Shown in pieces: positions 36,556 to 59,373 of a stretch of DNA of 64,000 nucleotides. Each line of letters begins with the position of its first letter. Within the stretch, counting starts at the first letter, position 1. The stretch is from Methanoplanus endosymbiosus (lineage in GTDB: Archaea; Halobacteriota; Methanomicrobia; Methanomicrobiales; Methanomicrobiaceae), in NCBI RefSeq assembly GCF_024662215.1, contig NZ_CP096115.1, positions 1,736,001 through 1,800,000 of the forward strand. The letters run 5' to 3'. Below the pieces are notes generated by a model. It worked only from the letters and a program-made list of their open reading frames with translations. It was not told where the DNA came from and ran no database searches. The position numbers were made by a program, and so were the translations under genes.

Positions 36556-37350
36556 TCAACAGTTCCGCTCCTCTTCAAAGAAAAGACAGTATAATGAATT
36601 ACTATTATCAAGTCTTTTAAATGAGATATTATAGTCCATATCTCCGATGCCGGCATTAAACGGAACTGAAATCTCACAGAGGGTCTGCCGGCCATTTTCA
36701 CCAGATAAAAGAGACAATCTGAGATCATTTTCATCAAAACTCAGAAAGTCCTCAACTTCCATTCCCACGAGATCGTCCGGAGTTCTGCCTGCCATACGGC
36801 AGAATGATTCGTTGACCTCAATTATTCTCTTGCAGTCGCCGCCTTCAATAGCAAATATAAGCAGTGGGATGCTGATATGATTGAATATCTTTCTGTATTT
36901 CTCTTCACTGTCCAGCCTTTCCCTCTCTGCCTTTACAGCCTTATGCTTATTAAGAACAGTCTCAATTGTTGTATATATCTCTCTTGGCCTTGCAGGTTTT
37001 GTGAGATAACCGTAAGGCTTTGTTCCGATGGCCCTCTTTAAGATCTCATCTCCACTGTATGAAGTGAGATAAACAAAAGGAATATCACCAATTTCCCTTA
37101 GCCTCTCAGCGACATCAATACCATCAATCTCATCTTCAAGATTAATATCAATAAGGGCGATATCCGGATGCAACTCCTCTGCAATCCTGATTGCATCAGA
37201 ACCTTTGGTTGCAAGGCCGACTACATCATATCCAAAAGAGCCAAGCGACCTCTCAAGGCTCAATGCAACGATAATCTCATCCTCAACTATGAGAACCCTG
37301 TACGCCGGTATGCTCTCCTCCTCTGTATTACTGATAACCAGAAAGACCAA
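36556..37350 (-). CDS. Response regulator: receiver plus PAS
   Basis: 264 aa. The receiver domain (about 18-135) has acidic pocket EDE, phospho-acceptor Asp in ALIDINL (near 72), Thr in YLTSYSG and Lys in YLTKPARP, so it looks phosphorylatable. A PAS domain follows (about 145-260). No DNA-binding or enzymatic output is present, which is common in methanogen systems. The start is unclear: the only in-frame standard codon is TTG at 37350, directly abutting GGAG, and the receiver begins near residue 18. Likely partner of nearby sensor proteins. Confidence 0.8.
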   Translation of the reverse strand: MVFLVISNTEEESIPAYRVLIVEDEIIVALSLERSLGSFGYDVVGLATKGSDAIRIAEELHPDIALIDINLEDEIDGIDVAERLREIGDIPFVYLTSYSGDEILKRAIGTKPYGYLTKPARPREIYTTIETVLNKHKAVKAERERLDSEEKYRKIFNHISIPLLIFAIEGGDCKRIIEVNESFCRMAGRTPDDLVGMEVEDFLSFDENDLRLSLLSGENGRQTLCEISVPFNAGIGDMDYNISFKRLDNSNSLYCLFFEEERNC

Positions 37351-53811: not shown

Positions 53812-54570
53812 TCAGAGTGATGAAAAATCAAACTTTTTTTCAGCGATTGCAACCACAACAAGCGCCGCCAGAACTTCTGAAGAGAAGATCATAAACATAA
53901 TTACGAGCTGATACTCCGCAGCCCATATCGGATTCACACCCCCTATTATCATTCCTGCCATTGAACCGGGCAGGACAACAATTCCAAGCGACCTCATTCT
54001 GTCAAGGGAGGGAATGAGCGAGGCCCTGACACTCTGCCGGATATGTGCCGTCAGTGCCTCATTGTCTGATGCACCAAGCGACAGGGCGGTTTCAATTATA
54101 TCTTTATGAGACTTTAACTCAGCTGAATAACGGTTTAAGACAAGTGAACATACAATCATCGTGCCACCTATCGCCATACTCCCCACCGGAATAAGAAATT
54201 CCGGTTTTACGGGTAGAACTCCGAGAACAATAAGTATAAAGATAATAGTTCCGGCACCCGTCCCTATTGCAGGAAAGGTGACTGAGAAGGGATTTGACAT
54301 TCCCGATGCCCTCTCCGCTGAACTTTTTGCAGCAATTACAGCCATAACAATCAGCACAGTAACCGTAAGAGCCGGACTGTCAGCCTCAAATACTGCAACA
54401 ATCACCAGAACAACAGCCATAAGCTGAAAAACGGCCCTGAAAGAGGCAATTATCACATCCTTTTCTACACCAAGCCTTCTCCATGCCGAAAGACCCACAA
54501 CAAGCAGAATAAGTACTACTGAAAGAGCCAGATTAAGCAGTCCGGCAATAGGATCATATGCACCACCAAT
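53812..54570 (-). CDS. fetB: FetB-type ABC permease (UPF0014), unusual start
   Basis: Membrane part of the FetAB transporter (iron export and related roles in bacteria). The first standard start codon in frame is a GTG at 54498, which would remove most of the first membrane helix (LLNLALSVVLILLVVGLSAW). The frame stays open upstream through IGGAYDP to the fetA stop, where CTG (54573) or ATT (54570) follow GAGGAG by five to eight bases. I take initiation at one of these, overlapping the fetA stop. Family signs: KDVIIASFRAVFQLM, IPSLDRMRSLGIVVLPG and MAGMIIGG. About 252 aa with this start. Confidence 0.8.
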   Translation of the reverse strand: MGGAYDPIAGLLNLALSVVLILLVVGLSAWRRLGVEKDVIIASFRAVFQLMAVVLVIVAVFEADSPALTVTVLIVMAVIAAKSSAERASGMSNPFSVTFPAIGTGAGTIIFILIVLGVLPVKPEFLIPVGSMAIGGTMIVCSLVLNRYSAELKSHKDIIETALSLGASDNEALTAHIRQSVRASLIPSLDRMRSLGIVVLPGSMAGMIIGGVNPIWAAEYQLVIMFMIFSSEVLAALVVVAIAEKKFDFSSL

Positions 54571-55250
54571 CAGATTATCTCCTCCAGAACTCCGTTTTCA
54601 AGATGCATATGCCGGTTTCCCATCCTTTTCGCCTGATCTGCATCATGTGTGACAATAATAAAGGTGATCTTCCTCTCACGGTTCAGGGCAGAGATGAGAT
54701 CTTCCATCAGCAGTTTACTGTGCCCGTCAAGGGAGGCTGTAGGCTCATCAAGCAGGAGAACGGAGGGCCTCAGTGCAAGCGCCCTGGCAACTGCCACCCT
54801 CTGCTTTTCCCCTCCGGAAATTTTTGCGGCATCACGATCCAGAATATCTCTCTTCAGCCCGCAGCTCTCTGCAAGAATGCCAAAGTCAGGACTCTCAAGG
54901 TCCCTGTTTGCAGCAAAAGAGAATGGCAGTCTAAGATTATCAAGAACAGTGCCGGGGAAGACAGACGGTGTCTGCCCGACAAGAACTATATTTCTCCGGA
55001 TAACTGTTGCCTCAGGCCGGCTGATATCCCCGCCCCTGAAATAAACTGATCCCTCATCAGGCACAATCAGGCGGTTTAAACACCTTAAAAGCGTGCTCTT
55101 CCCGCTTCCGGATGGCCCGGTTATTATCAGGCATTCACCTTCAAAAAGAGAGAACGAGAGTCCCATAAATATATTGGCATCTCCGTATTTCAGGGATATA
55201 TTATCTGCCTTTATCTCAGGTACAGTCATCCCCTTATTCTGACTCAGCAT
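54570..55250 (-). CDS. fetA: FetA-type ABC transporter ATPase
   Basis: 226-aa ATP-binding subunit. Walker A GPSGSGKST, signature ISGGEKQRVAVARAL, Walker B VLLLDEPTAS and the switch His in VTHDADQA. It starts four bases after the HEAT gene stop and overlaps the fetB start, so HEAT-fetA-fetB is one transcript. An ATG at 55229 preceded by AAGGGG is a possible shorter start. Homologues pair with FetB. The transported ion is not determined by sequence. Confidence 0.9.
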   Translation of the reverse strand: MLSQNKGMTVPEIKADNISLKYGDANIFMGLSFSLFEGECLIITGPSGSGKSTLLRCLNRLIVPDEGSVYFRGGDISRPEATVIRRNIVLVGQTPSVFPGTVLDNLRLPFSFAANRDLESPDFGILAESCGLKRDILDRDAAKISGGEKQRVAVARALALRPSVLLLDEPTASLDGHSKLLMEDLISALNRERKITFIIVTHDADQAKRMGNRHMHLENGVLEEII

Positions 55251-55254
55251 TTTT

Positions 55255-58200
55255 TCAGTCCTGATTATTCTCTGAATTTTTTATCCTCTCAATTAGTAAT
55301 TCAATGACATCTCTGCTGTTGTTATCCTTAAGATCGTCTGCATATCCCTCAAGAACCGGGATTATCTCAGAACCCGACTCTAGAAGAAATCCGGCAGCAG
55401 TCTCAGACACTTCCGGATCAGTGCTCAGGGCAAGGCCGGCAAGCGCCTGCACAGACTCCTCACCACCTATGGAGAATATGCTTTTTACAGCAGAGATCCT
55501 TCCGGGAGCATCCTCCTCACCCACATAGGAGATCAGATATCTGACAGCATAACTGCCTGCCTTCTCAACCTCAGCCCAGTCATTATCAGCTATAAGCTCT
55601 GTAATATTCTCCCTTCTGCTTATAAATTCATATAAATCATTCATCTTCTGCTTTTTCTTTTCATTCTGAACCTTACCGGCTGCCTTCTGAATATATGGAA
55701 GGGACTTTCCCCCGGATCGGATCAGGAATGTACATGCAGTCTCCGAGACAACAGGATCGTCATCAGCACTCTCGACTGACAGTATTGAGAGTGCATCATT
55801 GCCTCCGATATTTCCTATAATCCGGGCCGCCTGCCTTCTGGCATCCGGATTGTGCCCTTTCAGGATAACAATAAGCTCTTTTAAGGCCGGCCTGCCCATT
55901 TCTTCAATCCCATGCCATTTCCCTTCCGAAAAAAGAGAGCGGAATTTCTGCCTGAATTCTGTCTTTCTGATAATCCTGTTTAATCTTTCAGTTTCATCCG
56001 GATCAGATCTCTCTCCTTCAGCACGCCTCAGTGCCGGAAGAAGAACTGCACCTTTCCTGAGAACTGCCTCCTCTGCCCTCGCGGATATTGAATCATCCAC
56101 ATCATACAGTGCATAGACAAGAAGGGAATAAAAGTCCGGGCCGCCTGATGAGATGATAAATTCAAGTGCCTCTTTTCTCCTGCCGGAATATGGGTTCTCC
56201 ATAATATTTTTCATAGCCGGAAGTGCAGCAGAGCCAGATCTTTCCAACTCTTTCCATTCACCCAGGGCCGCAAGGTAATACGACTTATCTGTGAGATCTT
56301 CAGGAATTATGGAGAGATCCCTCATTGCAGATGCAGCAGTCTCTTTTAAAAGATCATTCTCATCACCCTTCAGGGCTGACAACAGTTCAGGCCCGGCTTT
56401 TGAACCGTATTTTTTAAGGGAGATAACGGCAGGCCCGCGAATTTTACTGCTTTTTGAACCAAATAAAGATATAAGAAGCGGTATTGCCCTTTCATCATCA
56501 ATCTTACCGAGAATTTCCACAGCTGCAGAGTTTACCTCCGGGTTGTTATCCTTTAGAGCATGGGTTAGTGCATCCAGGATCTTCCTGTGGCCAAGTTTAT
56601 ACAGGGCATATATCAGGGCCACCCTGACAGGAGTCTCTTTTTCAACAAAAATCCGGTCAAATATCACATTTGAGGCAACTCTGCTTCCCGTCCCCGACAG
56701 CTTTTCTGCCGCCAGTATTTTTATCTCCGGACTGCCATAGTTTAAATACCTCATAAGCCCGCTTATACCGGGTTCACCAAATTCCGGCAGAATTCCGGCA
56801 ATAATCTCACGAAGATCGTCATCGGCACTGATCATTGTATTCAGAAGAGGCTCAACTGCCGGTTCGCCCATCCCGATAATTCTCTCAGAAGTTGCCTTTC
56901 TTCTCTTTTTATCATCACTTTTCAGACCTATTACAAGCCTTGAGATCTCCATTGAGATCTTCTTCTTGAGCTCAAGCTCTTTTCTGATTATATCATCGAT
57001 CTCATTCTGGGTGAGCTGCTTCTTAATATCCTTTGCAGCCTTTTCATCCTTCTCAGATGAGGCATTCTTTATCAGCTCATCGATCTCATCCTGGCTGAGT
57101 CTGTTGCCCAGAAGTTCAGTCGTCTTCTTACTCTCAGCATAAACAGATCTGTGGATCAGTTCATCGATCTCATCCTGACTGAGTTTTTTGCCGAGCAACT
57201 CACCGGTCTTCCCTGACCTATCTGATCCTGCACCCCGGATAAGTTCATCAATCTCATCCTGCCTGAGCTTTCTGTCAAGAATCTTTAAGGCATCCTCATC
57301 ATCAGCACCTAAAAGCTGATCAAGCAGTCTGTCAATCTCACTTACCGACAGTTTTCTTCTGATAAGGCCGGCGGTTTCACGACTCTTCTCCGAAAATTTG
57401 CTCAGTTCACGTTTAATCTCCCTCTGTCTGAATATTTCAAGAATTGTCCCGGCATTCCGCCTGACCTCCTCATCACTGTCCTTTATAAAACCCCTGACAT
57501 ATGATATAACCCTGAGATCGTCTATCTTTGAGAGGACACTGAGCATTCCAAGTTTTTCCATCTTTGTCCCCTGAATGCTCACTCTTCTGACTTCATTCAT
57601 CAGGTAATTGAACATGAAATTGCTGATTCTTAAGAGACCTGCCATTGCCTGATTTCTGACATTTAGCTGCGGATCATTGAGTGACCTGGTAACCGGAAGA
57701 ATCCCCGAAGGATCACTTATGCCGCTGATTGCTTTGAGTGAGCATATTCTTACATTCTCATCAGGGGTAAATATCATATTTTCAAGAAAAGTGAGAGCAT
57801 TGTTACCCATTTTTGCAACCGATTCCGAGCATTCATCCCTTACACCATCATCCGGATCAGCAAAATGCCTTATAAGAATCGGTATTGTCTCCTTCTTTCT
57901 GAGTTTACCAAGGGCATAGGCCGTTGCCCGCCTGACACTTGGGTTCTCATCCTCTATTGTATCAAAGAAAACCGTTATGGCCTCATCTGACTGTAGATCA
58001 CCAAGTGCTTCAACTGCAACAACTTTCACACTGCTTTTATCATCTTTAAGCAGTTTAAGAAGGGCATCAACTGACTTTTTACCATATCTCTTCAGTGATT
58101 CGACAGCCACGATTCTTATTACAGGATCATTACTTGCAAGCGCCTGTGCAATTTTTCTGGAATTGATAACTGAAAAACCACTTTTTTTAAGGAGCTCCTC

Positions 58201-59373
58201 CCAGTATTCCGGAGAATTGAGATCAAGTATCTCAGACTCCTTTTTCAGGAGTTCAAGAGCTTCATTATCTTCGGCCCGTCTGTCCTCTTCATTAAAATAC
58301 CGGACTGCATCCGCCGCCCCTCTTCTGACTTCAGGTTTTCCTGATCTTTTTGCTTCGCCAATGGCCGCATATGCTGGTTTGCCTATTGAATAAAGAGTTT
58401 TAAGAGTATTTTCCTTAATTATCGGGCTTTTATCCCCAAGGAGATCAATGAGGCATGGCAGGGCGTATCTCCCCATCTTTGCAACATCATTGTAACTTCC
58501 CCTGACCATCAGTGATTTGGTTTTTAGGTAACTGTCCGGAGGCCGCCACCCGATCTTCTCCAGTGACCAGGATGCCTCAACTCTGACATCAAATTCAGGG
58601 TCATCAAGTGCCCTGATAATATGTGGTATTAAGGCTGCATCACCCTTATCACAGGCTGATTCAATCGCAGACTGCCTTACAGAAGGATCTTTATCCAGAA
58701 GTAATCTGCACAGCAGAGGTACAGATCCGGCCTCATTTACCTTAGCAAGTGTATGTGCAACCTTCTGCCTGAAATGAGGATCAGGATCTTCTGCTCCAAA
58801 ACTGAGAGCATTGAGAGCAGGCCGGCCCATCTTACCAAGTTCTTCCCAGTTTCCGGCAGAGAGGTGATAAAATGATTTTTCAACCGGATTCTGTGAGTCC
58901 CATCCAATGTTGTCAAGTGATTTGACTGCCCTCTCCCTTACTGATTTATCACTGTCCTTCAGAAGAGAGACCAGCATATTTTTATGGCTCACGTTTGGAT
59001 TTACGAGATACCCAAGGGTTAAAGCTACTCCCTGACGTGCCTTTGGCCTTTTATCGTTTATAATGCCTGAAAGCGGTCCGATAATATCGCCGCCCTCTGC
59101 TGAGATCTGCGCTATTGTTCTGGCTGCGCCGTCCCTTGCATTATCCTGTCCGGTTATAAGGAGACTGACAAAAGTGCCGATATTATCGCCGCTGTAAGAC
59201 CCCAAAACTTCAGCAGCTCCGCTGCGCATAGTCTCACTGCCACTGTTCAACGCCTTTAAAAGAGGAATGGCTCCTTTTTTGCCGATTTCCTTCAGCCTTT
59301 TGATCGCTTTTTTCTTCTCCCCCCTGCTGCCGGAGTCCAGCAGTTCAAGCAATCCCGTAATCTCATCGGACAC
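55255..59373 (-). CDS. Giant HEAT-repeat scaffold protein
   Basis: 1372 aa built almost wholly of HEAT/PBS-lyase-type alpha repeats (for example DPSVRQSAIESACDKGD, NPSVRRATAYALGKLRKKE). At intervals there is a longer module of the form G-x-W-x-E-x-x-x-x-G-x-x-A-L (AGNWEELGKMGRPAL, LGEWKELERSGSAAL, EGKWHGIEEMGRPAL, DNDWAEVEKAGSYAV). The solenoid is interrupted at about residues 674-796 by a charged segment with five SQDEIDEL-type motifs. It starts with GTG at 59373 without a clear ribosome site. Probably a soluble protein-binding scaffold. It is co-transcribed with fetA and fetB. No enzymatic motif is seen. Confidence 0.85.
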   Translation of the reverse strand: MSDEITGLLELLDSGSRGEKKKAIKRLKEIGKKGAIPLLKALNSGSETMRSGAAEVLGSYSGDNIGTFVSLLITGQDNARDGAARTIAQISAEGGDIIGPLSGIINDKRPKARQGVALTLGYLVNPNVSHKNMLVSLLKDSDKSVRERAVKSLDNIGWDSQNPVEKSFYHLSAGNWEELGKMGRPALNALSFGAEDPDPHFRQKVAHTLAKVNEAGSVPLLCRLLLDKDPSVRQSAIESACDKGDAALIPHIIRALDDPEFDVRVEASWSLEKIGWRPPDSYLKTKSLMVRGSYNDVAKMGRYALPCLIDLLGDKSPIIKENTLKTLYSIGKPAYAAIGEAKRSGKPEVRRGAADAVRYFNEEDRRAEDNEALELLKKESEILDLNSPEYWEELLKKSGFSVINSRKIAQALASNDPVIRIVAVESLKRYGKKSVDALLKLLKDDKSSVKVVAVEALGDLQSDEAITVFFDTIEDENPSVRRATAYALGKLRKKETIPILIRHFADPDDGVRDECSESVAKMGNNALTFLENMIFTPDENVRICSLKAISGISDPSGILPVTRSLNDPQLNVRNQAMAGLLRISNFMFNYLMNEVRRVSIQGTKMEKLGMLSVLSKIDDLRVISYVRGFIKDSDEEVRRNAGTILEIFRQREIKRELSKFSEKSRETAGLIRRKLSVSEIDRLLDQLLGADDEDALKILDRKLRQDEIDELIRGAGSDRSGKTGELLGKKLSQDEIDELIHRSVYAESKKTTELLGNRLSQDEIDELIKNASSEKDEKAAKDIKKQLTQNEIDDIIRKELELKKKISMEISRLVIGLKSDDKKRRKATSERIIGMGEPAVEPLLNTMISADDDLREIIAGILPEFGEPGISGLMRYLNYGSPEIKILAAEKLSGTGSRVASNVIFDRIFVEKETPVRVALIYALYKLGHRKILDALTHALKDNNPEVNSAAVEILGKIDDERAIPLLISLFGSKSSKIRGPAVISLKKYGSKAGPELLSALKGDENDLLKETAASAMRDLSIIPEDLTDKSYYLAALGEWKELERSGSAALPAMKNIMENPYSGRRKEALEFIISSGGPDFYSLLVYALYDVDDSISARAEEAVLRKGAVLLPALRRAEGERSDPDETERLNRIIRKTEFRQKFRSLFSEGKWHGIEEMGRPALKELIVILKGHNPDARRQAARIIGNIGGNDALSILSVESADDDPVVSETACTFLIRSGGKSLPYIQKAAGKVQNEKKKQKMNDLYEFISRRENITELIADNDWAEVEKAGSYAVRYLISYVGEEDAPGRISAVKSIFSIGGEESVQALAGLALSTDPEVSETAAGFLLESGSEIIPVLEGYADDLKDNNSRDVIELLIERIKNSENNQD
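56985..57350 (-). repeat. Array of five SQDEIDEL-type motifs inside the HEAT protein
   Basis: In protein order: LSVSEIDRLL, LRQDEIDELI, LSQDEIDELI, LSQDEIDELI and LTQNEIDDII, spaced about 20-30 residues by polar linkers. The corresponding DNA words (CTCATCGATCTCATCCTG and close variants) repeat on the plus strand. The segment likely consists of short helices between disordered linkers. Confidence 0.8.

Follow-up and report, generated by a model that had tools for sequence, protein, structure and literature searches.

The window analysed here, a stretch of 64,000 nucleotides from the genome of Methanoplanus endosymbiosus, contains a gene for a large HEAT-repeat scaffold protein (Table 1). HEAT helices repeat over most of the length of this protein, as in an α-solenoid. 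The Pfam search gave HEAT_2 (E 1.4e-96, 14 stretches) together with HEAT and HEAT_PBS, and only HEAT/Arm-type families scored above the Pfam cut-offs. The top Foldseek matches to the model of the protein were HEAT-like alphaRep proteins. Genes for a UPF0014 permease and an ABC ATPase follow on the same strand (window positions 53812-55250), with a 4 bp gap to the ATPase gene; this arrangement is not conserved in other genera. The neighbours of the HEAT gene vary between genera, no conserved neighbour points to a partner, and the che genes are not near it. Elsewhere in the same genome (L079 4261-9708; G000:C1 about 1,214,260-1,219,710), two large HEAT proteins of 1027 and 685 aa are encoded in tandem. 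Both are similar to the protein described here, and both are without the strip described below.

Within the solenoid we found a strip of five units, one of which reads KTTELLGKKLSQDEIDELIHRS. Each unit carries one copy of a short motif. The copies start at residues 675, 703, 731, 759 and 787, with a period of exactly 28 aa or 84 nt, and they are internal (residues 675-796 of 1372) rather than N-terminal. The first-pass annotation of this DNA had reported five such motifs, and they were indeed present on the minus strand at 56986-57351, one base off the positions given there. Its description of an SQDEIDEL-type array stood for the five copies in a broad sense, but the strict pattern L-[ST]-Q-x-EID occurs in copies 3-5 only; copy 2 carries R in place of S, and copy 1 is without the Q. 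A DNA pattern of two motifs with the 28-aa period matched three times in the window and in none of 100 shuffles of it, and a motif search found no single motif elsewhere in the 3.16-Mb genome. These results ruled out a chance repeat.

Table 1. The strip-bearing HEAT gene, its motif copies, and bacterial FliY proteins that carry arrays of a similar motif (positions are those of the window, except in the last row, where they follow the locus)
Feature	Position	Strand	Basis or remark
HEAT-repeat scaffold protein, 1372 aa, GTG start	55255..59373	(-)	ORF; Pfam; HEAT-like flank model
Inserted strip, five 28-aa units, about aa 666-796	56986..57378	(-)	84-nt period; absent from paralogues; conservation; AlphaFold
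Motif copy 1, LSVSEIDRLL	57322..57351	(-)	Q absent here, as in all orthologues
Motif copy 2, LRQDEIDELI	57238..57267	(-)	Across orthologues, most degenerate among copies 2-5
Motif copy 3, LSQDEIDELI	57154..57183	(-)	Conserved HRS[VA]Y next
Motif copy 4, LSQDEIDELI	57070..57099	(-)	
Motif copy 5, LTQNEIDDII	56986..57015	(-)	Inside AAKDIKKQLTQNEID, invariant bar one A-to-T change
FliY proteins with LSQEEIExLM arrays	L059 259-1629; L064 2-1426; L075 5906-7285; L077 2349-3830; L078 5834-7102		

Three HEAT paralogues, 1027, 1040 and 1059 aa long and including one from this genome, align across the site, where a short linker replaces the strip. Judged from these alignments, the strip is an insertion in the HEAT solenoid. 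The gene with all five copies in register was found in eight Methanomicrobiaceae genomes (this one and seven others) from three genera, and the remaining genomes of the family had only weaker HEAT relatives. The strip of about 130 aa may have been gained, within a HEAT-solenoid scaffold, by the common ancestor of these three genera. In two of the three strip-less paralogues, SEIDEII or SEIDRII starts the next HEAT helix just past the site, and such a helix start could be the raw material for the strip units. The orthologue in genome G013 (L055 6219-10360) is read in two overlapping frames that split just past the strip, a frameshift in either the genome or the assembly. A motif scan of 393 genomes of the phylum turned up single motifs sporadically but no other array. 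These single matches fell in assorted ordinary proteins, so that carrying the motif does not in itself indicate CheY binding.

No other part of the protein is as well conserved as the strip: identity among orthologues is 0.82-0.87 over residues 721-800, compared with mostly 0.5-0.8 elsewhere. Copies within one protein are 69% identical in the motif and 23% identical in the rest of the unit, while the rest of each copy is 65% identical between species. This implied that the duplications are old and that each copy has been retained separately. Changed codons altered the residue in 23% of cases in the motif cores, where changes were mostly synonymous, and in 59% in the HEAT flanks. By these comparisons, the strip is under strong selection. 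The Q is kept in 20 of 20 instances in copies 2-5; over all copies, the E is kept in 24 of 25 and the D in 22 of 25, and the L, I and L/I positions are retained as well. Further conserved positions are T/A at -8 and hydrophobic residues at -5/-4 (L/I at -4), and the period shows almost no indels across orthologues. The first-pass annotation had allowed that conservation might fall on the hydrophobic helix face only; this was not so, with Q, E and D kept too, and the pattern favours more than a bare hydrophobic face.

Over the strip the AlphaFold pLDDT was 28-50, compared with about 75-94 over most of the HEAT flanks; the alignment had just 7 sequences, and these values therefore indicate flexibility only weakly. 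The model placed short separate helices at the motifs, and the strip modelled alone reached a pTM of 0.22. Compared with all other segments of the protein, the strip has the highest charge and the lowest hydropathy, and its linkers contain no proline. The low model confidence, the charged composition and the strip-less paralogues agree with the earlier suggestion of a flexible insert, and, as far as this shallow alignment goes, the strip was not predicted to pack as an ordinary HEAT helix. The modelling favours a flexible string of helices.

The array is conserved, is an insertion and has no confident predicted fold, from which we infer a candidate flexible, multivalent docking module; we rate this reading highest, with an even chance. 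It would consist of five short amphipathic helices with capped N-termini (L-S/T-Q-x-E-I-D-x-L-I), kept at constant 28-residue spacing by charged linkers. Each helix could hold one partner copy, and the solenoid would draw the bound partners together. This reading is independent of a receiver domain as the partner. The proposal of a multivalent docking strip thus survived in part: the strip is inserted, conserved and flexible-looking, and arrays in bacterial FliY are comparable, but its FliM likeness is unspecific and CheY is not obligatory.

A structural helical repeat is the chief alternative, although we consider it the less probable reading. Two short helices per 28-aa unit would then build a mini-solenoid or a coiled extension that bridges the HEAT blocks, and the likeness to FliM would be convergence on a capped helix, possibly from the SEIDxII start of a HEAT A-helix. 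The constant period with almost no indels is near the HEAT_PBS repeat length, and the conserved -8 and -5/-4 positions (T/A at -8, L/I at -4) suggest a second short helix in each unit, which would fit a folded repeat. The SEIDEII and SEIDRII helix starts of the paralogues are consistent with this reading, as are matches to EF-hand and myosin sequences (below), which mark the motif as a generic helix start. However, the same AlphaFold alignment folded the HEAT flanks confidently and not the strip, and no other part of the protein is so charged or so little hydrophobic. The conserved Q at helix position N1 and the conserved D after the I also argue against a purely structural role, neither being required for capping.

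FliM begins with a CheY-binding peptide, LSQ-x-EIDALL, whose complexes with CheY are represented by 1F4V and 4IGA. The profile of the strip units matched a profile of bacterial FliY/FliM-type motifs over 16 columns (hhalign 97%, score 35.1), and an EF-hand helix profile, which served only as a control, gave 95% and a score of 29.1. The 12 matches of the strip in the PDB included 4iga_B (E 1.1), the FliM peptide from a co-crystal with T. maritima CheY; it ranked behind the N-terminus of a myosin essential light chain. A single strip unit matched calmodulin. The FliM likeness is not specific: the resemblance pointed out earlier is real at the profile level, but EF-hand helices and the N-terminus of the myosin light chain show it to about the same degree. 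L-S/T-x-x-E-I is a general helix start that combines an S/T-x-x-E capping box with an L/I hydrophobic staple. It is mainly the invariant Q that distinguishes the strip from a generic capped helix. An EF-hand was ruled out, as no calcium loop follows the motif helix (the residues after the motifs include HRSVYAESKK, KNASSEKDEK and RKELELKKK) and Pfam detected no EF-hand. The statement that FliM is absent was correct for this genome: the FliM domain (PF02154) had no match in it or in the 1372-aa protein, with positive controls in four bacteria. The CheC-like and FliN C-terminal (FliMN_C) domains of FliY were likewise absent from the protein by Pfam, and a FliM or FliY homologue was thereby ruled out.

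A CheY-like receiver domain is, from the FliM/FliY-like sequence, the leading single candidate partner, but it is an unlikely one. Strict FliM-type docking, a special case of the docking strip in which CheY-P or another receiver would bind each motif through its α4-β5-α5 face, is to the same degree improbable. The identity of the motif to LSQ-x-EIDxLL and the profile and FliM-peptide matches speak for it, and T. maritima CheY, which was co-crystallised with the FliM peptide in 4iga, closely matches this genome's CheY (E 6.8e-41). The genome has 43 receiver domains, in keeping with the many receivers mentioned in the earlier annotation. Receivers number 25-46 in the eight genomes with the strip and 5-27 in the other twenty (Mann-Whitney test on receivers per Mb, p 2e-4, without correction for ancestry). 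Genomes of genus g8 have 25-38 receivers with the strip gene and 5 without it, those without the gene being small. This excess cannot be separated from phylogeny and genome reduction, and as evidence for docking of receivers other than CheY the counts tip the balance only slightly. Against FliM-type docking stands the finding that archaeal CheY-P binds CheF through α1 and loops near the phosphorylation site, and not through the FliM groove (PMC9126983). Genomes that lack the strip gene, those of g8 among them, have CheY and CheF just as the strip-bearing ones do, and the α4-β5-α5 face of CheY is practically identical in the two groups. In this comparison the T. maritima CheY row served as a control only and agrees with the PDB alignment. 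CheY is therefore not an obligatory partner, and the distance of the gene from the che genes also speaks against FliM-type docking. Among the single-domain receivers that this genome encodes, none stood out as a partner. The receiver named in the earlier annotation (window positions 36556-37350) is a receiver and PAS protein of 264 aa. That the HEAT scaffold gathers several activated receivers at once on FliM-type peptides, using the FliM/CheY code in a cell without a bacterial flagellum or FliM, is slightly less probable again. Self-association, in which the motif helices would join molecules of the HEAT protein to each other and not to a partner, is quite improbable: basic GKK/KKQ segments lie between the acidic motif helices and would be able to pair with them, but the conserved uncharged Q is left unexplained.

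To our knowledge, the signalling output of non-CheY two-component receivers in methanogens is largely unknown. If receivers did dock, the scaffold, with its several equivalent helices to bind them, would be a concrete, testable output route, and the FliM recognition peptide would be in use outside flagella. Whatever the partner, this lineage-specific, highly conserved candidate docking strip gives a handle on an uncharacterised HEAT protein.

A pattern scan of 84,980 species recovered the strip itself in two Methanomicrobiaceae records and also revealed arrays of the motif in bacteria. Several FliY proteins of Clostridia (Oscillospiraceae/Eubacteriales and Peptostreptococcaceae) carry 2-3 LSQEEIExLM copies in the linker that joins their CheC-like domain to the FliN domain. 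In the array-bearing proteins of Table 1, the linker copies replace one N-terminal copy, and Pfam found both the CheC-like and the FliN C-terminal domains in those of L059 and L075. Genuine flagellar switch proteins thus have FliM-type peptides in tandem within a flexible linker, and by analogy these arrays offer the strip a precedent in bacteria. We found no earlier description of them in the open-access literature, and open-access papers held nothing useful on the motif peptide sequences or on multivalent CheY docking. A multiplied FliM-type peptide, which perhaps raises the local CheY concentration, may be commoner than the single copy in FliM suggests. The scan also gave a Butyrivibrio ORF of 157 aa (L072 2744-3214) that has LSQxEIDxL[IV] four times and in which Pfam found no confident domain, and an Aminicenantes protein (L076 3-971) with three VLSQEEIDKLSG (VLSQEEIDKL) copies and, after them, a membrane segment; the gene of a response regulator is located a few kb from the latter.

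Among known systems, OE2401F is, like the strip protein, an archaeal HEAT protein. It is a HEAT_PBS protein of the Halobacterium che region that is tied to CheD/CheF and needed for switching (PMC2666748). However, OE2401F is encoded beside the che genes in haloarchaea, whereas the strip gene lies in no che cluster. The EF-hand helix of calmodulin (LGEKLT-D-EEVDEMI) starts nearly as the strip helices do, but the strip has no calcium loop afterwards. With the FliM peptide, the strip shares the L-S-Q-x-E-I-D-x-L-L/I core, the short amphipathic helix and the non-globular context. FliM, a C-ring protein with a FliM domain, has one copy, at its N-terminus, in contrast to the five internal copies in a HEAT protein. 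The FliY arrays belong to the flagellar switch, and their linkers are mostly Pro/Ala-rich with varying spacing, whereas the strip has no proline, a fixed period and a HEAT context. What the FliY arrays and the strip have in common is the tandem arrangement of motif copies in a low-complexity or charged linker.
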